Shown here piece after piece: positions 2,354 to 20,297 of a DNA stretch of 20,627 bases. The notes beneath the pieces are model-generated. The model made no database searches and was not told where the DNA came from. It saw only the letters and a program-made list of their open reading frames with translations. Position numbers and translations under genes: made by a program. Position 1 is the stretch's first letter. Each line of letters opens with the position of its first letter. Where the stretch lies: positions 1-20,627 of the IMG/VR virus record IMGVR_UViG_3300042691_018322. One strand, written 5' to 3'. This stretch comes from a virus.

Positions 2354-2502
2354 TAGTGTGGAATCATGTGTGGAATATAGGGAACATTACGTGGTCCAAA
2401 ACGTTCTTCTAAGAGCTTTTTAGCCTGTTGAGCATTGTCGGCATATACACGTTCTTTGGTATCTCCGTTTGGCGTTCTAACAGTTGCTTCAAACATTGGC
2501 AT
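2353..2502 (-). CDS. Small hypothetical protein, 49 aa
   Basis: Short gene joined by TAATG junctions at both ends: its ATG at 2502 overlaps the stop of the VWA gene, and its stop overlaps the ATG of the 94-residue gene. The translation begins 'MPMFEATVRTPNGDTKERVY' and continues with a helix 'ADNAQQAKKLLEERFGPRNV', a beta-beta-alpha pattern often seen in small phage proteins. A second in-frame Met at residue 3 is an alternative start. Double coupling and sensible amino-acid composition support a real gene. Role unknown. Confidence 0.75.
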   Translation of the reverse strand: MPMFEATVRTPNGDTKERVYADNAQQAKKLLEERFGPRNVPYIPHMIPH

Positions 2503-3803
2503 TATACTGTCTCCTTGCTTAATTCATAGTAGGTAGTTATACCAAATGGTGCCTCGATAGTAGTTGACCCGTGGATAACGAACATAGTATCACAGTAGTC
2601 AGGTTCACCCCATGATCCATATGGATAACCATCTGTGAACATGATAAACTTCTTAGGTTGGATATCGTTTTCACGCATCCATTTCCAGTTAGCCTCAAAG
2701 TCTGTGCCACCACCACCTAAGGGTTCCCACTCTAAGATCTCATCTAAGTTTTCATTAGTGAATATCTTAGCACCCTCAGCGTATACTTCCGTGTCAAATG
2801 ACCATAAATGTAGTCGGAAACTCTGATAGCTTTCCATGATACCTTTAACTTCACTTAGGATATCTTTGAGCATAGCATCGCTCATTGAACCTGATGTGTC
2901 GATGGCTACACAGATATCAATCTCTTTATCAAAGTCACTGCCTGGCATAATAGCATCCATGTCCCAACCTTTACGACTAGCTCTAGCCCAAGTATAGTCT
3001 GTGCGTAGAGTGCTTTGAATCTGTTGTTGTAGCAGTGCTCTCCAATCTAACTGAGGTGCAGTAAGATCTTTTATCATACGCTTAACCCCTGCTGGCAAGT
3101 TACCTGCACCTACAGCCTGTGCCGCAGTCATAACAGCTTCTTTGATCTCATCTCGTATCTGTTTACGTTCTTCTTCTGAGATTTTAGGACGGCCTTTGCC
3201 TTCTTTTTCTTGGCCTTCACCTTCACCTTCACCACCATCTCCGTCACCATCCAAGTGTTCGTCTAACAGTTGATCTACTAGGTCATCAATGTTGATTTTC
3301 TCTGCATTCTTTTCTAAGTCATCATAGACTTCTTCGGCTGACCAACCACGATACTTAGGCTCGTATAAACCCACAGGAATCTTTTCACCGATCTTTTGAT
3401 CTAACAAATCTTGATTAACACAGTAGTCATCGGCGATATTCCATAGCTGGGGATCTCTATCACCACGACGACCCATATGGTCATAAACACAGTGTAGGAC
3501 CTCATGACCCATAAGGAATTCTAGCTGTTTAGCTGGCATTTTCTTAAGGAATTCGCTGTTATAGTAGAACTTACGTCCATCAGTTGCGGCAGTTGGACAC
3601 CATTCATCGGCATTGACTAGCTGTAGCCTGGTAGCTAGGTTACCAAAAAAAGGTGCTTTAAGTAGTAGTGCGATACGAGCAGTCACAAGTTTCTCACGGA
3701 CCTGTGCGTCTGTTTGTGGATTGGTTTTTACACCAACATAGTTCTTAGCTTTACTGGTGGTTGTGCCTTTTGAATTAGTAGCCATTTTTGTCACTTTCTT
3801 CAT
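2502..3803 (-). CDS. VWA-domain protein with DUF2201-type metallopeptidase-like domain
   Basis: The 433-residue product has three parts. Residues about 30-180 form a domain with an HExxH zinc-binding motif (HEVLH, 100-104, followed by CVYDH), as in DUF2201 putative metallopeptidases. Residues about 180-205 are a Gly/Glu/Asp-rich linker. The C-terminal half is a von Willebrand A domain with a MIDAS motif 'DTSGSM' (302-307), 'GGGGTDF' (363-369) and 'MFTDG' (about 388-392). Such proteins typically partner MoxR AAA+ ATPases, and one is encoded two genes upstream, so a phage chaperone or metal-insertion module is likely. ATG 3803 lies only 11 nt from the -10 box; the ATG at 3785 (Met7) is an alternative start. 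Neither has a strong Shine-Dalgarno. Whether the peptidase site is active is unknown. Confidence 0.9.
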   Translation of the reverse strand: MKKVTKMATNSKGTTTSKAKNYVGVKTNPQTDAQVREKLVTARIALLLKAPFFGNLATRLQLVNADEWCPTAATDGRKFYYNSEFLKKMPAKQLEFLMGHEVLHCVYDHMGRRGDRDPQLWNIADDYCVNQDLLDQKIGEKIPVGLYEPKYRGWSAEEVYDDLEKNAEKINIDDLVDQLLDEHLDGDGDGGEGEGEGQEKEGKGRPKISEEERKQIRDEIKEAVMTAAQAVGAGNLPAGVKRMIKDLTAPQLDWRALLQQQIQSTLRTDYTWARASRKGWDMDAIMPGSDFDKEIDICVAIDTSGSMSDAMLKDILSEVKGIMESYQSFRLHLWSFDTEVYAEGAKIFTNENLDEILEWEPLGGGGTDFEANWKWMRENDIQPKKFIMFTDGYPYGSWGEPDYCDTMFVIHGSTTIEAPFGITTYYELSKETV

Positions 3804-6928: not shown

Positions 6929-7307
6929 GATATTGTTGTAGATTGCTACCATGCAAACTTAACATAATCATGTCCTGTTCACCGAATACATAGATGCTGG
7001 TATGGGTGGGGATATAGTAAGGATTTTTGAAGTGTTTTTCTAATTGTATATAAGCACGTGTAACCAAAGGTGTGGGCAGTTTAAACATCCAGCTTTTAAT
7101 ATCTTTGTTTTTGTTCAGCATATTAAATGCTGGTCGGGTCAATCTAAGACTGTTTGGATTAACTGGGTTAAACCACCAGCTTGCTGGGTTATCATAGCGT
7201 TGATAACGTAAGCCAAGTTTGGGGTCTGATGTAAAAGGATTTAGCGTGTGTTCTTGGAAACGGGCCTGCCAGACGTTTTGTAAACTCTCAGCAGTGCGTT
7301 TTGCCAT
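6909..7307 (-). CDS. Conserved hypothetical protein, 132 aa
   Basis: The protein carries 'YDNPASWWFNPVNPNSLRLT' and 'SWMFKLPTPLVTRAYIQLEK', with many aromatic residues, and looks like a compact soluble domain. The 'WFNPVNPNSLRLT' stretch resembles, from memory, an uncharacterised phage family. No signal peptide or membrane helix. It begins 2 nt after the stop of the 95-residue gene without an evident Shine-Dalgarno, suggesting coupling. Its last 20 nt contain part of the next promoter. Confidence 0.8.
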   Translation of the reverse strand: MAKRTAESLQNVWQARFQEHTLNPFTSDPKLGLRYQRYDNPASWWFNPVNPNSLRLTRPAFNMLNKNKDIKSWMFKLPTPLVTRAYIQLEKHFKNPYYIPTHTSIYVFGEQDMIMLSLHGSNLQQYLDNLDQ

Positions 7308-7309
7308 GG

Positions 7310-7597
7310 TTAAGGATAGATCTGATCACCGGCTTTGAGAAGAACTACTGAAAACTTGTCACTCTTGAATAGAGCGTTGAGTTTTTTAGCAAGATTGATA
7401 GCGTGCCCTGGGTTACTAAAACTTACTTTCTTATATTTAGGTCCGGGGTAGGCCACTAGGATGTTCTGTGTTTTAAGATTAATAGGTTGATTATCAAAAA
7501 ATACCGCCCAGATACCTTCTGAACTTAGAATCTGATCGCTTTTATAGCTTGTTTTATTAACGTGCTCTAACAGCACATTGGGTTTTGGTCTTGACAT
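7310..7597 (-). CDS. Conserved hypothetical protein, 95 aa
   Basis: GGAG lies about 12 nt before the ATG at 7597. The sequence is basic with a beta/alpha pattern: 'RPKPNVLLEHVNKTSYKSDQ', 'IWAVFFDNQPINLK' and 'GPKYKKVSFSNPGHAINLAK'. This resembles, from memory, a small family in T4-like marine phages without assigned function. A short AT-rich gap separates it from the glycosyltransferase-like gene upstream; that gap holds a hairpin and a possible late-type promoter element. Confidence 0.82.
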   Translation of the reverse strand: MSRPKPNVLLEHVNKTSYKSDQILSSEGIWAVFFDNQPINLKTQNILVAYPGPKYKKVSFSNPGHAINLAKKLNALFKSDKFSVVLLKAGDQIYP

Positions 7598-7618
7598 CGT
7601 ATATGTTTCTCCACATAT

Positions 7619-7626
7619 ATTTATGC
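7619..7626 (-). promoter_or_regulatory. Possible T4-type late promoter element
   Basis: Minus-strand CATAAATA (7626-7619), one mismatch from the T4 late consensus TATAAATA, lies about 22 nt upstream of the ATG at 7597. A Shine-Dalgarno follows. The motif is short and the region is AT-rich, so chance is a real possibility. Confidence 0.3.
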
Positions 7627-7630
7627 CTAT

Positions 7631-7652
7631 AAAGTGAGTATATAATCACTTT
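7631..7652 (-). other. Hairpin spanning the stop codon of the glycosyltransferase-like gene
   Basis: A perfect 7-bp inverted repeat AAAGTGA/TCACTTT with an 8-nt AT-rich loop includes the TGA stop at 7648-7646. It is not followed by a T-run, so it is not a typical intrinsic terminator; an RNA processing or stability role is possible. Confidence 0.35.
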
Positions 7653-9203: not shown

Positions 9204-9555
9204 AACTGATAATTCCTACGTAAGTTAAATAGTGCAGAGTCTGATCGGCTCCAAACAAAATCCAGAATTGACGATGTGGCATGAGTTTACCCCGACTCAG
9301 TTGCTGTTTGGCCCAATCGATATGATAGTGTAAGACAAAGTCAGCGAACGAAAGTGCGATAATTTCATTTGCGTTATTACAGAAGAACACTAGGATGAAG
9401 AAAGTAAAACTAGCATGGACCATGGCATGGTGTAAGCCACCTTCAGCACCATAGATGCCTTTGTCTCTGAGCATGTAGTCATACTGCATCAAGAAGTCAG
9501 CTATGAAATGTTTGATGCCAAATAAGGCTAGTAAGATGAATACTGTTGCTGTCAT
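9187..9555 (-). CDS. DUF3307-family membrane protein
   Basis: A 122-residue integral membrane protein. It opens with a hydrophobic segment followed by 'KHFIADFLMQ', then 'KGIYGAEGGLHHAMVHASF', a hydrophobic segment of about residues 49-60 and further hydrophobic stretches towards the C-terminus. The conserved His/Asp pattern (KHF.AD..MQ, GG..HA..H) is that of DUF3307. The family has no established function; the in-membrane His and Asp residues hint at metal binding, which is inference. It overlaps the QueD stop in an ATGA junction. Confidence 0.82.
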   Translation of the reverse strand: MTATVFILLALFGIKHFIADFLMQYDYMLRDKGIYGAEGGLHHAMVHASFTFFILVFFCNNANEIIALSFADFVLHYHIDWAKQQLSRGKLMPHRQFWILFGADQTLHYLTYVGIISYVTLG

Positions 9556-10100
9556 TTGTAAAATACGCTACGTGACTTAGGAGTTTCCCACCAGTCAATA
9601 TGATCAACAGTTACATTAAGTTTCTGCATTTTAACATCAACTAGATCAGCCATCCAACTACTTAAATTTTCGCTGGTTGGAACAAAGTTCACAATCATAA
9701 ATCCTTCATAATATTCATACTCCGGTGTATTAGGATCTAAGTCTGACAAGTCTAAGTGCCATCCTGCTACATGAGTAGTACCTGGAACAAGGATTGGATA
9801 GCGAACACGATCACCAACGATTTGAAGATATAACGGATCATTTAAATCGATAACAAACTGATGATCGATATATTCATTAATCCACTTCTTTAACCATTCT
9901 AGATGGCGGAAGTCAGTCACCATGCCAGTCTGATCTAGATTACCATCTAGGCTCTTTAGATAGACCTGCATCTTGCCTTCATGTCCATGTAGGTGACGGC
10001 AAGCACACTTCAAGTCTGCGGCATATTCACCATTTAGTTTCTGTGTCCAAACCCTGTGTCCATAACAGAATTCAAACGTTTTATCAATTACCCAAGCCAT
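9552..10100 (-). CDS. queD: 6-carboxy-5,6,7,8-tetrahydropterin synthase (QueD, PTPS family)
   Basis: QueD converts 7,8-dihydroneopterin triphosphate, the FolE product, to 6-carboxytetrahydropterin, the QueE substrate. The 182-residue protein has the zinc-site histidines (His15 in 'YGHR', His38 and His40 in 'CRHLHGHEG'), the catalytic Cys34, 'GMVTDFRHLEWLK' (59-71), 'IDHQF' (78-82), and near the C-terminus 'PTSENLSSW' and 'WETP' with the conserved Glu. It is longer than the usual 120 or so residues because of an insert between the 'DHQF' and 'PTSEN' regions. The start at 10100 is chosen because AAGGA lies 8 nt upstream and homology begins there; an upstream ATG at 10136 would add 12 unsupported residues. 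It overlaps the 85-residue gene by 17 nt. Confidence 0.92.
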   Translation of the reverse strand: MAWVIDKTFEFCYGHRVWTQKLNGEYAADLKCACRHLHGHEGKMQVYLKSLDGNLDQTGMVTDFRHLEWLKKWINEYIDHQFVIDLNDPLYLQIVGDRVRYPILVPGTTHVAGWHLDLSDLDPNTPEYEYYEGFMIVNFVPTSENLSSWMADLVDVKMQKLNVTVDHIDWWETPKSRSVFYK

Positions 10101-10341
10101 GTTTCTTTTCCTTAATGTAATGTTTGTTCCAATCATACTGTGATGCTAGGTGATGATCGTTTTGGAAGTGACTAGGGCCATCATAATAGTCTAGTCCAAA
10201 ATGACGTCGTATATTCTTTTGATCAGCTTGGCTACCGCACATGTCTGCGCAACGCTCACCAACCAAACGATAAAAATGTTCAAGATTATCTGTGACAGAT
10301 AATCCTGCTTGTTCTGCTAATCGTTCTAATTCTTTAGTCAT
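10084..10341 (-). CDS. Hypothetical protein, 85 aa
   Basis: First gene of the queD operon. The N-terminal helices ('LERLAEQAGL', 'LEHFYRLVGERCADMC') are followed by a His/Tyr/Asp-rich tail ('HFGLDYYDGPSHFQNDHHLA'). Two Cys and several His could bind metal, but no known motif is present. The ATG lies 5 nt from the -10 box, predicting an almost leaderless mRNA. Role unknown. Confidence 0.75.
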   Translation of the reverse strand: MTKELERLAEQAGLSVTDNLEHFYRLVGERCADMCGSQADQKNIRRHFGLDYYDGPSHFQNDHHLASQYDWNKHYIKEKKHGLGN

Positions 10342-10375: not shown

Positions 10376-11029
10376 CTATTTTTTTGGCCGTAATTTTTTG
10401 ATCACTTCGAGTACCTCAGGGTCAAGCGTAACGCCCAAAGGTTTGGTAGTGTCTGGGTAACTGCTGATGCCAATGGTTTCTTTATTTTTTAGCGTGGCTA
10501 GATAAATTTCGGCTAGAATTGTTGGGGTTGTGCTGACTAAAATATGAGCATCATCACCATGCTGTTGTTTCATTTCGTTAATGATATTTTCTAAACTAGC
10601 AGAATCGGGATATTTTTTTGCATTGAGAAGGACGGTATGCGGCATCTCTATAGTTTGCTGTCGAGCACGTATCATATCTAAAATATCGGCTGCTTGTCCT
10701 AGGGTGTTGCTAGCCCGTTCTGTTGGATCACTCCTTAAATTTTCTAGCATGGTTTTTAATTTACTTTCTCTTTGGTATGATTCGGGCTCTTCTAAATCGT
10801 CAATAGGATCAGGATACCCAGCTTCATCGAGATCAGGGTTTATAAGATATCCTTCAATTATTACCGTATCCTCTCTTACCGCCTGCCAATCCTTATTATA
10901 TATAACCTGTTCCGCTTCTTCATGGGTAAGTTGTCTAGCCCATGATTGAGTTTCTCCTGTAGGTGATTTTACATTGATAATCGCATAGGTTGATAGATCT
11001 TTTTTAAAATACTTTTGCTTGGTCGCCAT
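10376..11029 (-). CDS. Hypothetical protein, 218 aa, under a structured RNA leader
   Basis: No domain recognised. The N-terminal region 'YAIINVKSPTGETQSWARQL' looks like a small beta domain. An acidic Pro-rich linker ('DPIDDLEEPES') and a helical segment follow. The C-terminal part reads as an alpha/beta domain ('HTVLLNAKKYPD', 'DAHILVSTTPTILAEIYLAT') ending in a basic tail. The start is set at 11029 because AAGGA lies 10 nt upstream; an in-frame ATG at 11098 would require translating the structured leader. The start codon is inside a perfect 9-bp stem with the Shine-Dalgarno in its loop, so translation is likely controlled. It is the next gene after the restriction-modification pair, which may be coincidental. 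Confidence 0.8.
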   Translation of the reverse strand: MATKQKYFKKDLSTYAIINVKSPTGETQSWARQLTHEEAEQVIYNKDWQAVREDTVIIEGYLINPDLDEAGYPDPIDDLEEPESYQRESKLKTMLENLRSDPTERASNTLGQAADILDMIRARQQTIEMPHTVLLNAKKYPDSASLENIINEMKQQHGDDAHILVSTTPTILAEIYLATLKNKETIGISSYPDTTKPLGVTLDPEVLEVIKKLRPKK

Positions 11030-11060
11030 AATATTGTTGTCCTTGTTAGATAATATTATG
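11027..11060 (-). promoter_or_regulatory. Start-codon-sequestering hairpin of the 218-aa gene
   Basis: CATAATATT (minus 11060-11052) is the exact reverse complement of AATATTATG (11035-11027), which contains the start codon. The 16-nt loop holds the AAGGA Shine-Dalgarno. In the RNA this would bury the AUG in a 9-bp AU stem. It directly adjoins the 3' end of the GC-rich leader, like a riboswitch expression platform. Confidence 0.6.
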
Positions 11061-11202
11061 CCAACCTGACGTTGACCATGTCTGCTGAACAGCATCATGA
11101 CCTACCATTGCCGCTTGATGCGACGCTGGGCTACCTGTCTAATGTTCGCTTCTGACTTGCGTCAGGGGCCGGGTAGGGACTCCGGTTGGCTAGGAGTGTG
11201 TT
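11060..11202 (-). ncRNA. GC-rich structured leader RNA, candidate cis-regulatory element
   Basis: This block is visibly GC-rich against its AT-rich surroundings and has no credible reading frame. On the minus strand it contains: ACTCC/GGAGT (11197-11193 with 11183-11179), whose loop holds GCCAACC; GCCAACC (11190-11184) paired with GGTTGGC (11066-11060), which would form a pseudoknot or long-range closing stem; CTGAC-GCAA-GTCAG (11165-11152) with a GNRA loop; CTACC/GGTAG (11176-11172 with 11135-11131) enclosing it; CCTGACG/CGTCAGG (11166-11160 with 11071-11065), competing with the GNRA hairpin; and TGCTG-TT-CAGCA (11094-11083). A candidate promoter puts the RNA 5' end near 11202. I could not match it to a known riboswitch, ribozyme or tRNA. 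The strand is inferred from the promoter and downstream gene. Confidence 0.6.
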
Positions 11203-11208
11203 ACAATT

Positions 11209-11238
11209 ATTATATAGTAAAACTGCTAAACAATTCAA
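11209..11238 (-). promoter_or_regulatory. Probable promoter of the structured leader
   Basis: Minus-strand TTGAAT (11238-11233), an 18-nt spacer, then TATAAT (11214-11209). An overlapping TATATA allows a 16-nt spacing. It is weaker than the other promoters here, but the predicted start near 11202 falls just before the first stem of the structured leader. Confidence 0.55.
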
Positions 11239-11265
11239 CTATAATTTCTATTTAGTTTTGCCGAA

Positions 11266-12255
11266 CTACTCTGAAGAAATCGTGAATAGTGGACCTAACA
11301 ATTCTTCGTCTGGAGATTTACCTTGTATTCGATTGTTGGCAATACTAATATATTTTTCTTCTTTTTCTATGAGGATATAATTTCTGTCTGTTTGTATGGC
11401 TGCCAACGCAGTTGACCCAGACCCGCCAAAACAATCTAATACAACATCACCTGGATCAGTGCAGTGTAATATAATATTCTTGAGTAAATCTAATGGCTTA
11501 GGAGTAATATGACCCTGCTTGTTTTTATCTATGTCATAATTCCAAATGCTGTGATGGGTTTTTTGATTCCTAAATTTTGGTCTTAAGTCATCCATTGTTA
11601 ACCCTAAATGTTTAGTTAATGGGACAATAGTTTTTTCTGATGGAGGACTTTTACCTGACAATACATTTTGTAACCATCCAGTCTGCCCGCCCGATTTAGA
11701 TAAAACTTCTTTGCTAATGTCTGATCCCTTGACACCAAGTTCTATCATTTTTTGACGGACTTTAAGATGTAGATCCTTGCGAGTATAGAACATTATATAC
11801 TCGCACATTTTTTGAAAATTAGTCAGACCTTCTACTTCGCAATAGCCATGGAGCCAGCCATATTCTTTGCTGGGCTGGAATAATTTATTCCATACAATCA
11901 TATTCCGAAACTCTAGATCGGTATTATTCAGCATCTGGTGATTCAATGCTGATAATGCAGGGAATTCGTTATGAAAAAACCAAAAAGATCCAGAGTCTTT
12001 TAGCTTAGTATTAAGTTTGGCAAAGACCTGCCCCATCCAGTTGTAATAATCTTCTTCTGTAGGAGTCCCAGGTTTTCTCATGAAACCTTTTTTAACACGA
12101 CCCCATTGACTATCCCAACCATCACCTCCGTCTTTGTTAATGTTATATGGAGGGTCAATAATAATTAAATCTATGCTCTTATCTGGAATCTGATCTAGGA
12201 CTTCAAGGCAATCGCCTTGCAATACTTGATTGATAATTTCTTCTACTGTTTTCAT
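11266..12255 (-). CDS. Type II DNA methyltransferase, beta class (N6-adenine or N4-cytosine)
   Basis: The 329-residue protein has 'IIIDPPYNIN' near the N-terminus (catalytic motif IV DPPY, 34-37) and the SAM-binding motif I 'DCFGGSGST' near the C-terminus (FGGSGS, 276-281). That order defines the beta class of exocyclic-amino DNA methyltransferases. The middle contains a helical segment 'GGQTGWLQNVLSGKSPPSEK' plus 'LTKHLGLTMDDL', probably the target-recognition region. It follows the putative endonuclease by 4 nt in the same operon without an evident Shine-Dalgarno, suggesting translational coupling. In a restriction-modification pair it would protect DNA from the partner; as an orphan it could mask phage DNA from host enzymes. 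Target sequence cannot be read from this. Confidence 0.92.
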   Translation of the reverse strand: MKTVEEIINQVLQGDCLEVLDQIPDKSIDLIIIDPPYNINKDGGDGWDSQWGRVKKGFMRKPGTPTEEDYYNWMGQVFAKLNTKLKDSGSFWFFHNEFPALSALNHQMLNNTDLEFRNMIVWNKLFQPSKEYGWLHGYCEVEGLTNFQKMCEYIMFYTRKDLHLKVRQKMIELGVKGSDISKEVLSKSGGQTGWLQNVLSGKSPPSEKTIVPLTKHLGLTMDDLRPKFRNQKTHHSIWNYDIDKNKQGHITPKPLDLLKNIILHCTDPGDVVLDCFGGSGSTALAAIQTDRNYILIEKEEKYISIANNRIQGKSPDEELLGPLFTISSE

Positions 12256-12259
12256 GTTA

Positions 12260-13192
12260 TTACTTATCTTGCTCTATCAGTGCTTGCTTCATTCTTTCAA
12301 ATGTTGCAGGAATGGATCTATTACCTTGCCAACTATTACCCTCTCTAGTGATAAGACATACATTATACGGCTTAGTCATATATTCGCTATATACTTTTGG
12401 CTCAACATGACCAAATTGAACACCAGCATCGTCATCGGATCCCTGACCAAACATATTAATATTAAACACAACATGAGTTAACGGACATTTAGGATTCCCG
12501 TCAACTGTTGAAATTTTAATGTTTTTTCCTAAGAAATATTTCACTAGATCATCGAATCTCTGCTTTAATATTTTTTCCATTCCTGGAGTAACATCGATGT
12601 AATTATAAAATCCTGGCACCTGAGAAGACTGAGCAAGCATATCCAAATTAGCCAACACAGACATATAAGGACCAGATGCTAAATTTTGATGTACAAAAAT
12701 ACTTTGATCCGTTTTTGCTTTTAATTCTTTAATATTCTTTTTAATAATTGCTTTAATATTTTTAGATGCTTGAATGACCCAAAATCTGTTTCCGGCACGA
12801 TTCATTGCTCCGTAATCACCACCGTCATTTTCTGTACCTGCTTTAATTTTTTGAACAAAGCCGTTAGCAATAGTTGCCTCATCGGACCCTTTAGGAAAGT
12901 TTTTTATTTTCCAGGGATGATTTTTACATCTTCCTTTGTGATTTTTTGGTTGATAACATATTCCTGATAAACCAAAACCTTTATTTTCGTAATAATCAAT
13001 TATGCGATTTTCTTCTTCTATAGTTAGAGAAGGGTAAAATTTTTTCAATTTTTCAAGTCTTTCGGCTAGAGTTTTTCGTTGCTTTATTTTTGCGGGCAGT
13101 TCTTTCCCGCAAAGACCATACTGAGCAAACATGTCTTTGCCTTGCGGCACCCAAGCAAGGTATTTTTCTTGTGGTTCAAAATTAAATGTCAT
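12260..13192 (-). CDS. Probable type II restriction endonuclease
   Basis: A 310-residue basic, Lys-rich protein encoded immediately upstream of the DNA methyltransferase, the standard place for the cognate endonuclease. The C-terminal region 'QFGHVEPKVYSEYMTKPYNV' then 'LITREGNSWQGNRSI' (259-294) has the spacing of an HNH-like nuclease: His262, Asn277 and Asn286, with Gln-Gly as in 'CN..KG'-type ends. A Cys/His cluster, 'CYQPKNHKGRCKNH' (79-92), could bind zinc. The ATG has AAGGA about 8 nt upstream behind its own promoter. A homing endonuclease is the main alternative, but there is no intron or split gene, and pairing with the methyltransferase favours restriction. Its base composition looks more AT-rich than its neighbours, consistent with transfer. 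Confidence 0.62.
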   Translation of the reverse strand: MTFNFEPQEKYLAWVPQGKDMFAQYGLCGKELPAKIKQRKTLAERLEKLKKFYPSLTIEEENRIIDYYENKGFGLSGICYQPKNHKGRCKNHPWKIKNFPKGSDEATIANGFVQKIKAGTENDGGDYGAMNRAGNRFWVIQASKNIKAIIKKNIKELKAKTDQSIFVHQNLASGPYMSVLANLDMLAQSSQVPGFYNYIDVTPGMEKILKQRFDDLVKYFLGKNIKISTVDGNPKCPLTHVVFNINMFGQGSDDDAGVQFGHVEPKVYSEYMTKPYNVCLITREGNSWQGNRSIPATFERMKQALIEQDK

Positions 13193-15446: not shown

Positions 15447-16547
15447 TTAGTCCTTAAATAAATCTACGGCTTCCCACGGTAAATTAGCTTTACCAAAGTG
15501 TCCATAGTTGGTTGTTTCACTATAGATAGGGCGGAACAACTCAAATCTATTTATGATACCTGCCGGTGTAAGATCAACATTTTTCTCAATCCAATCGGTA
15601 GTATCCAAATCAACTCCTCGATCTGTTTTGATAAACAGACTAGTTGGTTGTTTAACACCGATAGCATAACTTAGTTGGACTGTGGCTTTGGTTGCACGAC
15701 CACTTGCTACGATATTCTTAGCTAGATACCTAGCCATATAAGCAGCACTGCGATCAACTTTAGTAGGATCTTTACCGCTAAAAGCACCACCACCATGAGG
15801 GCTATAGCCGCCATAAGTATCAACAATAATTTTACGACCAGTAAGCCCAGTATCACCGTCGGGACCACCAATAACAAAACGACCAGTAGGATTAATAAGA
15901 AACTCAGTGTTAGCATCAATTAACTCCTTAGGTAATACTTCTCTTATATAACTCTCTACTGCTACTCGCACTTCTGCGATATCTATGTCAGCTGAATGCT
16001 GTGTTGAACAGACGATCTTATCGATACGACTAACACTACCATCGTCATGATATTCCATCGTCACTTGACTCTTAGCATCAGGGCCTAACCATGTGACACC
16101 ATTGTTACGACGCAAGGTAAGTTCTTTGACGATCTGGTGACTGTAGTAGATAGCACTGGGCATTAGGTCTGGTGTTTCGTTGATAGCATAGCCAAACATC
16201 AGTCCTTGATCACCTGCACCAAAAGTGTCTGTGCCTAGAGCGATATCCGCTGATTGGCCATGCATGAAATTTAAAATATTTACATTGGCCCAATGGAATC
16301 CTTCTTGTTCGTATCCGATGTTTTTAATGATCCTACGCACGGTGCTAGAAACTTCTGCATCATGTAGAATACCTTTGTATTCGCCAGCTAGAACGACCTG
16401 ATCAGTCGTTACCAGTGTTTCACAAGCACAGCGATTAGCATTATTTCCGTCACGTAAAACTAAATCTAGGATCCCGTCACTAATAGCGTCTGCTACTTTG
16501 TCTGGATGCCCTTCACTAACACTTTCACTTGTAAACAAATAACTCAT
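15447..16547 (-). CDS. metK: S-adenosylmethionine synthetase
   Basis: MetK makes SAM from ATP and methionine. At 366 residues it is slightly shorter than the usual 380-400, yet the signatures are intact: 'SEGHPDK' (11-17) with the catalytic His, 'HGQSADIALG' (96-105), the hexapeptide-type 'GAGDQG' (110-115), 'GGPDGDTGLTGRKIIVDTYG' (227-246) and the phosphate loop 'GGGAFSGKDPTKVDRSAAY' (252-270). All expected active-site segments are present, so it should be functional. It lies between a DUF2061 gene and a hypothetical in the queE operon. Radical-SAM QueE and at least two methyltransferases in the window use SAM. Phage metK is unusual. The start forms an ATGA junction, with GGGG about 8 nt upstream. 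Confidence 0.96.
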   Translation of the reverse strand: MSYLFTSESVSEGHPDKVADAISDGILDLVLRDGNNANRCACETLVTTDQVVLAGEYKGILHDAEVSSTVRRIIKNIGYEQEGFHWANVNILNFMHGQSADIALGTDTFGAGDQGLMFGYAINETPDLMPSAIYYSHQIVKELTLRRNNGVTWLGPDAKSQVTMEYHDDGSVSRIDKIVCSTQHSADIDIAEVRVAVESYIREVLPKELIDANTEFLINPTGRFVIGGPDGDTGLTGRKIIVDTYGGYSPHGGGAFSGKDPTKVDRSAAYMARYLAKNIVASGRATKATVQLSYAIGVKQPTSLFIKTDRGVDLDTTDWIEKNVDLTPAGIINRFELFRPIYSETTNYGHFGKANLPWEAVDLFKD

Positions 16548-16756
16548 TCAGTTCCCCATTTAATTTTTAACCATATACGTTCGTGTATATAATAATCGAT
16601 ACTTAATAATAGATGTAGTAATGTAGCGAATCCAGTTGACTTAGCGATATCTCCGGTCCACATCCATGTCCAAAAAATAGTGAACAGCCATGCAGTGATG
16701 CGATAGCTGATCATCCTAGCAATAGTTCTTTTATGCGTTTCTCTTACTTGCCCCAT
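16544..16756 (-). CDS. DUF2061-family small membrane protein, 70 aa
   Basis: Pattern 'ETHKRTIARMISYRITAWLF' followed by 'TIFWTWMWTGDIAKSTGFA', then 'LLHLLLSIDYYIHERIWLKI', matching the small DUF2061 membrane family with two hydrophobic segments (about residues 19-34 and 40-53) and the conserved 'YY.HER.W' near the end. The family has no known biochemical function. GGGG lies 6 nt before the ATG. The gene overlaps queE by 13 nt upstream and metK by 4 nt downstream, so it is firmly within this operon. Confidence 0.85.
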   Translation of the reverse strand: MGQVRETHKRTIARMISYRITAWLFTIFWTWMWTGDIAKSTGFATLLHLLLSIDYYIHERIWLKIKWGTE

Positions 16757-17598
16757 GAATTACCCCATAAGTCAACATGCAATCTTGGGCTGTAATAATA
16801 CCCACGACGCATAGCTTCATCAGCTACATTGAATTTGTTACCATCATAGACCTTGACCACACCACCTACAGGCATGATATAAACAACACCTTTAAATTTG
16901 GCCCGGCGATACTCTGCCACTGCACGATCTACTTCATCAAAGTCTTTGGGATTTTCGACTACAAATTTAAGATAGGTAGTTCCAACCTTTTCATATGACT
17001 TGACGATTTCAGGTTTAATAGCATCTTCCCACCGCTCACCACTAGCACTTAATTTAGCACTGACTGAGAATGTGATCTCTCTACCAGCACGATTCCAAAG
17101 TTTTAAATACTTGGCAAAGTCTTCATGCAGTTCTTGGGTGCCGTTAGTTTCAAATGTTAAGTTCTTTAGATTATACATATCCTTATGACTTAGTAGTTCT
17201 GGATAAGCACGTTGCCAACCTAGCAATGGTTCGCCACCTGTGATAACCAAATGTGTATCATTACCATTGGGCATGATCCAACTATTACTCGGAACCAGAG
17301 CTAACATACGCTGGACTACAGCATCAATAGTCAGTAGAGGACTAAAGTTCTTAAATCTAGGATCCCATGACGCATAACTGTCACAGCCGGTATTAACCAA
17401 TGGAAGTTCTTCATAGATACGATATTTTGTTGGATCAATAAACTCACGTTCTGTGCTCATCTGTGTGCGATCTGGCATGCCAAATCCACCACAGGTAAAG
17501 TTACAGCCAAAGGTTCTTAAGAACACACTAGGAACACCGATAAAGCGTCCTTCACCCTGTGCCGAATAAAATATTTCACTGACTTTTAATTTGCTCAT
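16744..17598 (-). CDS. queE: 7-carboxy-7-deazaguanine synthase (QueE), radical SAM
   Basis: QueE uses SAM and a 4Fe-4S cluster to turn 6-carboxytetrahydropterin (QueD product) into 7-carboxy-7-deazaguanine. The 284-residue protein opens with 'FYSAQGEGRFIGVPSVFLRT' (10-29), typical of QueE. The cluster ligands appear as Cys32 and Cys36 in 'GCNFTCGGFG' and Cys72 in 'TGCDSYASWDP', so about 35 residues are inserted between the second and third Cys compared with the compact canonical CX3CX2C motif. 'VITGGEPLL' (118-126) and 'LTFETNGTQ' confirm the radical SAM fold. The start at 17598 is chosen because the domain begins there and the promoter's predicted +1 is exactly this A; an ATG at 17661 lies upstream of the promoter and is unlikely. 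Confidence 0.93.
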   Translation of the reverse strand: MSKLKVSEIFYSAQGEGRFIGVPSVFLRTFGCNFTCGGFGMPDRTQMSTEREFIDPTKYRIYEELPLVNTGCDSYASWDPRFKNFSPLLTIDAVVQRMLALVPSNSWIMPNGNDTHLVITGGEPLLGWQRAYPELLSHKDMYNLKNLTFETNGTQELHEDFAKYLKLWNRAGREITFSVSAKLSASGERWEDAIKPEIVKSYEKVGTTYLKFVVENPKDFDEVDRAVAEYRRAKFKGVVYIMPVGGVVKVYDGNKFNVADEAMRRGYYYSPRLHVDLWGNSWGK

Positions 17599-17604
17599 AT
17601 TTGT

Positions 17605-17633
17605 ATTATAGTAGATTTTTTTAGTAAAGTCAA
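17605..17633 (-). promoter_or_regulatory. Sigma70-like promoter of the queE-metK operon (probably leaderless)
   Basis: Minus-strand TTGACT (17633-17628), a 17-nt spacer, then TATAAT (17610-17605). The -35 box abuts the stop of the phosphoribosyltransferase gene (17634-17636). Six nucleotides separate the -10 box from the ATG at 17598. Confidence 0.85.
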
Positions 17634-18179
17634 TCAATGTTCCCAGGGATAAACAATCCAAACATCTTCTTGGGCTTTGTTTATTTCCACAGCACTGTAG
17701 TCGACCTTACGGCTAAACTTACTGCTGAGATTGTCAAATAACACTGCAAAACGCACATTGTTTCCCCATACATCTGCCCAGGCTGGATCGTTAGGCAAGT
17801 TACTACCTTGCCAATCTTTGATGATCCAATCTAATGTAGCACCTGTATCATTGATGTCATCTAAGATTAAGATGTTTTTACGTAGTGCGGGATCGCTAGT
17901 AGGCTCACCTGCTGGACGGGGAACTGCACTGGCACTTAAATATCCAAAAGCATCTTCAGCCATCCAGCAGTTGCTTTCGGTATCTGTGTTATCGCGTAAG
18001 GCTACTTTTAGTGTGTGCATGGGAATATCTAACGCATGACTCATATATACAGCAGGAACTAGTCCGCCGCGTGTTAACCCAACAATATAATCAGGACGCC
18101 ATTCATCCTTATACATTTGGAAACTGATACGATTAACATATTCTCTAATGTCTACGTCACTTACATAACGTTTTTTCAT
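17634..18179 (-). CDS. PRPP-dependent phosphoribosyltransferase
   Basis: A 181-residue type I phosphoribosyltransferase: 'DYIVGLTRGGLVPAVYMSHA' (30-49) is the first PRPP-contact loop and 'ILILDDINDTGATLD' (103-117) is the PRPP-binding motif. The overall layout resembles xanthine/hypoxanthine-type enzymes, which join a purine base to ribose-5-phosphate. The acceptor base cannot be read from sequence; purine salvage is the default guess, and a role with a 7-deazaguanine base is conceivable because folE and queE flank its operon. The start overlaps the previous stop in ATGA, with GGAG 8 nt upstream. Confidence 0.88.
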   Translation of the reverse strand: MKKRYVSDVDIREYVNRISFQMYKDEWRPDYIVGLTRGGLVPAVYMSHALDIPMHTLKVALRDNTDTESNCWMAEDAFGYLSASAVPRPAGEPTSDPALRKNILILDDINDTGATLDWIIKDWQGSNLPNDPAWADVWGNNVRFAVLFDNLSSKFSRKVDYSAVEINKAQEDVWIVYPWEH

Positions 18180-18807: not shown

Positions 18808-19608
18808 TTAATCTCCTTGATATTCAAAACTTTTGTCTGATGAGGATCCCTCAAATTTTTTACATAACATAGTAACTGATTTATATGACTGCGGGGCGAA
18901 ATTTTTTAAATCTTGTATCGCAAACCAATTTTTATTAAACTGACGTTCAACAACATGGAATTCGATGCGCCATCCAAAGAAATACAAAATCATTTCTAAC
19001 CAAGCCAGATTCGGACACGATCCAATCGCAGTTTTAAGATCACCATCAAATACTGTAAATGGACTTTCTGTTGTCTGAGAATAATAATGCACGGCAGGTG
19101 TGCCTTCATCGGAAAAAATAGTAGATTCAAAAATAAGATTTTTTATATCACTTTTAGAAATCGTTTCAATGATCGCATATGGATTTCTAAGATGTTCTAA
19201 AACCTGTGTAAAAATCAAAGTATCTTTATCTTTACAATTTTTTTCCAATAACTCTAAATCTTCAATATTACCTTGTTCAAATGTGTAATCAGTCATTCCT
19301 AACTGCTGATATGCAAAATTAGCAACATCAATTGGGAATTTTCTTACGTTAATTCCGTGGATTGATTTGGCTCCTAATTTTTTAGCTATATAAGACAAAT
19401 ATCCGACATGACAACCTAAATCTAATATTCTACAATCTTTAATATAGGAAATATCAGTTAGAAATAATCTTTCAAATCTTGTTCTATCTAGAGTCGGATA
19501 ATCCCAATCTTGTAAGGGCTGATATTGATCATACGATATCAGATTTTCAGTATGAAACAAGTGCGAAAAATATTGATAGTGTGCTGAAGGAGGTAACAAG
19601 AGACTCAT
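18808..19608 (-). CDS. Class I SAM-dependent methyltransferase
   Basis: A 266-residue protein with a Rossmann methyltransferase domain: motif I 'RILDLGCHVGYLSYIAKKLG' (60-79), 'IHGINVRK' as the acidic-loop equivalent region, 'GNIEDLELLE' and 'LIFTQVLEHLRNPY' (131-144), the latter typical of UbiE/Methyltransf_11-like small-molecule methyltransferases. It is not a DNA methyltransferase because no DPPY or PCQ motif is present. The substrate is unknown; a sugar or lipid-linked group is possible, as an aminotransferase of sugar-biosynthesis type lies two genes upstream. The start overlaps the folE stop in ATGA. Confidence 0.88.
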   Translation of the reverse strand: MSLLLPPSAHYQYFSHLFHTENLISYDQYQPLQDWDYPTLDRTRFERLFLTDISYIKDCRILDLGCHVGYLSYIAKKLGAKSIHGINVRKFPIDVANFAYQQLGMTDYTFEQGNIEDLELLEKNCKDKDTLIFTQVLEHLRNPYAIIETISKSDIKNLIFESTIFSDEGTPAVHYYSQTTESPFTVFDGDLKTAIGSCPNLAWLEMILYFFGWRIEFHVVERQFNKNWFAIQDLKNFAPQSYKSVTMLCKKFEGSSSDKSFEYQGD

Positions 19609-20297
19609 CTTGGTGCAAACTCCTGTTGTAGTTTAATATTATCAAAGAATTCTTTCTTAGTGTTACCATCATTCTTAAATGCACCTTTTAATACCGTAGT
19701 TTGTGTCAGACTTGAATGTGCCATGATGCCACGATTCTCACAGCAACCATGTGTGGCCTGTATATAGACAGCTACATTTTCACTACCTGTGGCTTTTTGG
19801 ATTTCTCTGGCGATGTCGTTAGCAAGTTCTTCTTGCAACGTACCACGACGAGCACACCATTGAGCAATACGAGTATACTTAGACAAGCCAATAAGTTTTT
19901 GTGCGGCGATAATCCCAATATAGGCAACCCCAGCGACAGGCTGGTGATGATGGCTACACATACTACGAAGTTCACTTCTAACCACAAGCATACCTTCATA
20001 ACGGTCCTCACTATCATTTGGAAAAGCTGTAGCATCTGGTGCTGGATCATAGCGTCCTGCCATGATCTCATACAGATACATTTTTGCAAGGCGACGTGCT
20101 GTGCCTTTTGAATTTGGGTCATTGTGTCTGTCGATAATCAAACTATCTAACACACCTTCAAATTTCTCAGTCAGTTCATCTACTAACTGTGCTCGTTCTT
20201 CGTCTTTGACGTATTTTGATATATTATCACCTGCCCAGTATCTCGCACCGTCATTGCTGATGCGTTCAAGGATAATATCACTGATTTTATTGCTCAT
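19605..20297 (-). CDS. folE: GTP cyclohydrolase I
   Basis: FolE opens GTP to 7,8-dihydroneopterin triphosphate, the entry step for folate and for 7-deazaguanine. The 230-residue protein has 'VRSELRSMCSHHHQPVAGVA' (106-125) with zinc ligands Cys114 and His117, 'IGLSKYTRIAQWCARR' (136-151) for substrate binding, and 'THGCCENRGI' (182-191) with the third zinc ligand, probably Cys185. The N-terminal helices and the 'NDSEDRYEGM' loop fit the family. The start at 20297 has GGAG about 8 nt upstream in a leader of some 35-40 nt behind its own promoter. With QueD and QueE in the same region, a 7-deazaguanine role is the simplest reading; feeding folate for ThyA/DHFR is the alternative. Confidence 0.96.
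   Translation of the reverse strand: MSNKISDIILERISNDGARYWAGDNISKYVKDEERAQLVDELTEKFEGVLDSLIIDRHNDPNSKGTARRLAKMYLYEIMAGRYDPAPDATAFPNDSEDRYEGMLVVRSELRSMCSHHHQPVAGVAYIGIIAAQKLIGLSKYTRIAQWCARRGTLQEELANDIAREIQKATGSENVAVYIQATHGCCENRGIMAHSSLTQTTVLKGAFKNDGNTKKEFFDNIKLQQEFAPR

Follow-up and report, generated by a model that had tools for sequence, protein, structure and literature searches.

Well-characterised leader RNAs of phages are few to our knowledge, and most of them come from model phages. The put RNA of phage HK022 consists of two simple hairpins of about 70 nt and makes RNA polymerase resistant to terminators. The closest described systems are leaders and hairpins around ribosome-binding sites. 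In phages T4, T2 and RB69, an H-type pseudoknot precedes the ribosome site in the gene 32 mRNA leader, which is under translational control, with autoregulation by gp32 (PMC3014915). The T4 genes e, soc, 49 and I-TevI as well as Aeh1 mobE have the Shine-Dalgarno sequence and/or the AUG in an mRNA helix, and several such hairpins are located on mobile phage genes (PMC3014915).

The phage leader described here resembles a combination of the gene 32 pseudoknot and the start-codon hairpins, and is a member of neither group by the tests made. It shares with the gene 32 leader the arrangement of a phage 5' leader with an H-type pseudoknot, here a proposed one, upstream of the ribosome site. The gene 32 leader, however, has an A+U-rich unstructured stretch, whereas in our case a three-arm core, more than 100 nt long, would lie inside the pseudoknot, which would directly adjoin a start-codon hairpin. 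Moreover, the gene downstream does not encode an ssDNA-binding protein that binds the leader, and no gp32 gene is adjacent to it: the first gene is an orphan gene or an mtr gene and varies between copies. The T4 and Aeh1 hairpins stand alone, and the best-studied ones are relieved by a later promoter, whereas the present hairpin is directly joined to a branched RNA domain that is conserved. An invariant unpaired core beside a structured ribosome site is also known from translational riboswitches (preQ1, SAM and others in Rfam), but the leader has neither an Rfam match nor a metabolic first gene. With HK022 put RNA it has in common that a structured RNA forms the 5' end of a phage transcript; put is smaller and simpler, while the present RNA has a start-codon hairpin attached.

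Results

The analysed stretch of DNA, in the following called the window, comprises positions 1-20,627 (20,627 nt) of the IMG/VR record IMGVR_UViG_3300042691_018322. A first-pass annotation had pointed out a GC-rich block between a candidate promoter and a gene start. We found this block at 11197-11060 on the minus strand, with a GC content of 0.57 compared to about 0.39 across the window, and confirmed both of its flanks, a promoter-like TTGAAT-18-TATAAT (11238-11209) and an ATG at 11029. The surroundings of the block are as follows:

11266-12255, minus strand: gene 5' of the module, N6/N4 DNA methyltransferase (PF01555, 1.4e-43), variable cargo
11209-11238, minus strand: sigma-70-like promoter, TTGAAT 11238-11233, 18-nt spacer, TATAAT 11214-11209
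10376-11029, minus strand: first gene in the window, 217-aa orphan-family protein

Transcription is predicted to start at about 11202. The relatives carry TTGACC or TTGAAC, 18 nt and TATAAT in the same place, and the exact spacer precedes every copy. In one relative (L024, 15209-15286), a 9-base insertion into the promoter brings in a new TTGACC, which lies exactly 18 bases from TATAAT and, judging by the sequence, apparently replaces the old upstream hexamer. We detected no intrinsic terminator in the stretch from leader to gene. The block has the properties of a cis-regulatory leader, i.e., a position 5' of a gene, a promoter just upstream and a covarying structure, with transcription being predicted from sequence.

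Relatives were sought in 80 related-phage loci, which were gathered via a neighbouring membrane-protein gene. An nhmmer search with the 236-base leader region detected the element in L024, L026, L027, L029, L030, L033 and L004 (each <=1e-31), and the RNA family consists of the window and these seven IMG/VR contigs. Since L004 carries the window version unchanged and L030 repeats that of L029, there are six distinct versions, with a core identity of 85-98%. When 1.4 Mb of loci were searched with the covariance model R1, it found the same seven contigs only, and in a scan of 32 whole records each of these contigs gave a single copy; pattern scans of viral contigs and of genome contigs revealed no further members. 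Within the loci, records and contigs searched, the family is narrow, and its carriers are a small group of uncultured phages that are apparently large.

Folding of the window sequence alone was modestly beyond chance (z compared to shuffles: -1.86 for the minus and -1.56 for the plus strand), and this weak advantage could not settle the structure. We therefore rely on the fold drawn from the six-version alignment and RNAalifold, a closing helix with three arms:

11179-11197, minus strand: 5' hairpin H1, ACTCC 11197-11193 / GGAGT 11183-11179, P1 5' strand in the loop
11060-11190, minus strand: closing helix P1, GCCAACC/GGTTGGC, 7 bp, 97.6% of cells paired
11131-11176, minus strand: outer helix of arm P2, CTACC 11176-11172 / GGTAG 11135-11131, invariant
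11165-11161 / 11156-11152, minus strand: inner hairpin P2a, CTGAC / GTCAG, loop GCAA (ACAA in L029)
11105-11129, minus strand: arm P3, CCA/TGG 11129-11127/11107-11105 and GTCGC/GCGGC 11124-11120/11114-11110
11074-11102, minus strand: arm P4, GGTCATG/CATGGTC 11102-11096/11080-11074 and TGCT/AGCA 11094-11091/11086-11083

It is the comparative evidence that settles the observation. The full model, which includes the start-codon hairpin described below, has standard pairs in 304 of 305 cells, and eight pairs are changed on both sides, seven in P2a, P3 and P4 together and one in the start-codon hairpin. The covariation score (0.163; shuffled mean 0.076) was reached by none of 500 shuffles, and sliding the partners by 1-3 columns reduced paired cells to 25-41%. 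Owing to wobble pairs, the plus strand gives only 289 of 305 standard pairs, which identifies the minus strand as the RNA strand and disfavours a plus-strand RNA. The double changes comprise two pairs in P2a (CTGAC/GTCAG to CCAAC/GTTGG or CTAAC/GTTAG), a G-C to A-U exchange in P3 (CGC/GCG to CAC/GTG) and four pairs in P4, which form a C-G/U-G/U-A series; in L026, both partners of the terminal P4 pair are lost together. P1 contains one A-A mismatch (L026) and no covariation, and H1 is invariant in all 19 columns, with five of five pairs in all six versions and likewise no covariation. For P1, outer P2 and H1, which are almost invariant, the support is complementarity; with only six versions of such high similarity, P1, outer P2 and the pseudoknot show no covariation. 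Unpaired bases are conserved, too: 36 of 42 are invariant in junction and internal positions, compared to 8 of 13 in hairpin loops and 9 of 16 in the loop with the Shine-Dalgarno sequence. The conserved junction and internal bases suggest that the core may be bound by something.

Rfam gave nothing relevant for the window at E up to 1, and noise for the block and two diverged copies at E<=10. In Rfam 15 no gathering threshold was reached, the sole riboswitch match being sul1 with 13-15 bits compared to 36.2, on the strand opposite the RNA. ARAGORN reported no tRNA or tmRNA, and distant blastn searches against phage records yielded chance 31-base matches in head-protein genes and nothing else. 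The first-pass annotation had proposed an undescribed structured 5' leader RNA and had named a covariance-model search of Rfam and compensatory changes as ways to check it. This proposal holds: a promoter lies directly upstream and a gene downstream, no Rfam family comes near its cut-off in three versions, and compensatory changes are present in P2a, P3 and P4.

The same annotation had also suggested two pairs of mutually exclusive stems and a pseudoknot. All of the motifs that it listed are indeed present where it placed them:

11190-11184 / 11066-11060, minus strand: GCCAACC / GGTTGGC
11166-11160 / 11071-11065, minus strand: CCTGACG / CGTCAGG
11177-11172; 11135-11131; 11106-11101, minus strand: CCTACC; GGTAG; GGTAGG

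The exclusive pairing of CCTGACG with CGTCAGG is broken in three of the six versions (6/7 pairs in L029, 5/7 in L033, 6/7 in L026). In these three, the 3' partner CGTCAGG is unchanged, and the local hairpin retains five of five pairs via compensatory changes. As the alternative loses pairs while the local hairpin compensates, it is not kept by selection, and we rejected this switch. CCTACC can pair with either GGTAG copy in nearly all versions, both copies being nearly invariant. The two helices of the proposed pseudoknot (ACTCC/GGAGT and GCCAACC/GGTTGGC) are fully complementary in five of six versions, and the sixth has six of seven P1 pairs, but their near-invariance leaves them without support from covariation. 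In an H-type pseudoknot, two bases can cross a 7-bp helix, and the 5' hairpin with the P1 5' strand in its loop may plausibly form such a structure.

The first-pass annotation overlooked the part of the locus that is most informative for the mechanism, a hairpin at 11059-11028 that abuts P1 with zero bases between them:

11059-11052 / 11035-11028, minus strand: start-codon hairpin, ATAATATT / AATATTAT, in 6/6 versions

The Shine-Dalgarno sequence AAGGA (11044-11040) sits in the loop of this hairpin, and the 3' arm AATATTAT reaches into the AUG, whose A and U are paired in the stem. The hairpin shows one A-U to U-A compensatory change among the six versions, a shuffle z of -3.8 to -4.3 and pair probabilities of 0.87-0.97 in longer transcripts. 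With this hairpin, the conserved structure takes in the ribosome-binding site, as expected of a translational leader. The stability of the hairpin, about -5 kcal/mol, is near the point where start-site hairpins begin to hinder ribosomes. The predicted value would be in the right range for tuning and is no proof of repression; the hairpin might not repress, as it is weak enough that it may be melted by a ribosome.

Promoter, leader and ATG form a module, which we found in front of three different first genes and at two insertion hotspots. One hotspot is flanked by a ribonuclease-like exonuclease gene and an 80-aa gene (window, L029, L026), the other by a 132-aa gene and an 83-aa gene (L024, L027, L033). 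Similarity between the window and L024 is high up to the ATG and falls beyond it. Because the leader is shared by different genes and the match drops after the ATG, it is a module that does not belong to one gene alone. Its initial description as the leader of an orphan phage gene was thus correct as to the position upstream of a gene, but too narrow. We rejected a leader specific to the orphan gene, also in view of L003, which has a 49% identical orphan homolog without the leader.

Five of the six versions have a cassette of variable cargo, promoter and leader, directly followed by a 77-aa mtr gene or an orphan-family gene; in L027, no cargo separates the leader from the preceding 132-aa core gene. 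The cargo includes a methyltransferase, large proteins with weak helicase or endonuclease matches, and unknown proteins. Searches of cargo genes with PADLOC, PHROGs and Pfam mostly gave no match, save for methyltransferases and helicase or restriction-like proteins. The first genes, orphan or mtr, matched no known protein family. For the 217-aa orphan protein, neither Pfam nor PHROG gave a match; it has two viral relatives, one with an identical sequence, and its structure model is poor (pLDDT 59.6). The model of the 77-aa mtr protein had no significant structural match (all E 0.06 or worse, with RRM- and ACT-like folds among the weak ones). The different first genes behind the leader argue against a first gene product that, as such, controls its own synthesis, but every copy has a gene for an orphan-family protein no more than one gene away from the leader, which makes autoregulation by this family possible.

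The hotspots are hypervariable (window 10376-13192, minus strand; L003, L015, L021, L023, L024, L026, L027, L028, L029, L033, L036, L040). They are filled with methyltransferases, ResIII helicases, phrog_2615 proteins and large family-less proteins, and the orphan-family gene recurs behind these. Leaderless relatives with other junctions occupy the same hotspots in L003, L021, L028, L036 and L040. Some of them carry, at the leader position and just before the Shine-Dalgarno sequence of the next gene, a terminator-like GGCCC/GGGCC hairpin and, after it, a run of T's, which are fewest in L028 and L036:

L021, ~7250-7300: GGCCC/GGGCC hairpin
L028, ~11860-11910: GGCCC/GGGCC hairpin
L036, ~7590-7640: GGCCC/GGGCC hairpin
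L003, 5944-5994: GGCCC/GGGCC hairpin

Elsewhere, the window encodes QueD-like and MetK genes, and further translations resemble, by eye alone, DHFR, thymidylate synthase, QueE and FolE (jointly 9552-10136, 15447-16547, 319-816, 2-283, 16744-17661 and 19605-20297, minus strand). This gene set suggests nucleotide or 7-deazaguanine metabolism. The best-matching named relatives of the protein encoded at 2502-3803 (minus strand) belong to phages of ~285-470 kb (Sinorhizobium phage Phosso, PA5oct), and the 20.6-kb window therefore probably represents one piece of a large phage genome.

Discussion

The leader is probably a previously undescribed gene-control switch, and is best read as a new RNA family within an already known class of regulators. 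We see about an even chance that the block is a 5' leader with its own promoter, in which the state of the core controls translation through the start-codon hairpin. A minus-strand mRNA would be transcribed from the sigma-70-like promoter, with the block as its 5' leader. This leader folds compactly, its arms P2, P3 and P4 closed by P1 and its 5' end probably pinned by the H-type pseudoknot, and the 3' strand of P1 continues without spacer into the start-codon hairpin, which would stack on P1. A phage or host factor, if bound, could set the state of the folded core; this state would then determine the stability of the stacked hairpin and, with it, how fast ribosomes enter the first gene of the cassette. 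An alternative pairing by which the start codon would be released is not known to be conserved. Under a bolder reading, which is tentative and, in our view, somewhat unlikely, the leader would be a new RNA of the sensor type, similar to a riboswitch or responsive to a protein, and would travel as a self-contained unit of promoter, leader and start codon.

The strongest rival, a constitutive 5' end that stabilises or insulates the transcript, is unlikely to a slightly greater degree. Such an element would shield the mRNA from decay, standardise the ribosome site and allow cargo expression free of any signal, in agreement with a start-codon hairpin that is weak and recurs before three first genes, at two hotspots and behind unrelated genes; it would need neither the invariance of 36/42 junction and internal unpaired bases nor a three-arm core of 140 nt. 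Next in rank, and improbable, is a trans-acting phage RNA, released by processing or pausing, that serves as a decoy or inhibits a host defence or RNA-processing factor, the gene being secondary. The core is indeed better preserved between window and L029 (87% alike) than the downstream orphan protein (42% identity), and restriction-like and methyltransferase genes are among the hotspot neighbours. However, the block has no terminator after it, and the covarying start-codon hairpin, which adjoins the leader without a gap, ties it to the gene in cis.

We regard as very unlikely a put-like RNA that would render RNA polymerase terminator-resistant for a long downstream operon. The position of the leader, at the extreme 5' end of the transcript, would suit it, as would the GGCCC/GGGCC hairpins with T's that several leaderless relatives have at the same junctions instead, but the leader is larger than put, branched and fused to a start-codon hairpin. 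That the inverted repeat is a signal in DNA, marking a recombination or insertion site for the cassette, can be given hardly any credence: the position at a junction of swapped genes in two hotspots would fit, yet the changes are compensatory and strand-biased as in RNA, and the promoter is kept.

With its comparative support, defined promoter and start-codon hairpin, the leader, which we favour as a translational control element, is directly testable in a reporter. If it senses a signal, it would be a case of phages carrying a complete module for the control of expression from one hypervariable cargo site to another, and would be relevant to how acquired accessory genes stay silent or are timed. 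Should the sensor reading be true, any accessory gene that lands behind the module would come under the control of an infection-state signal.
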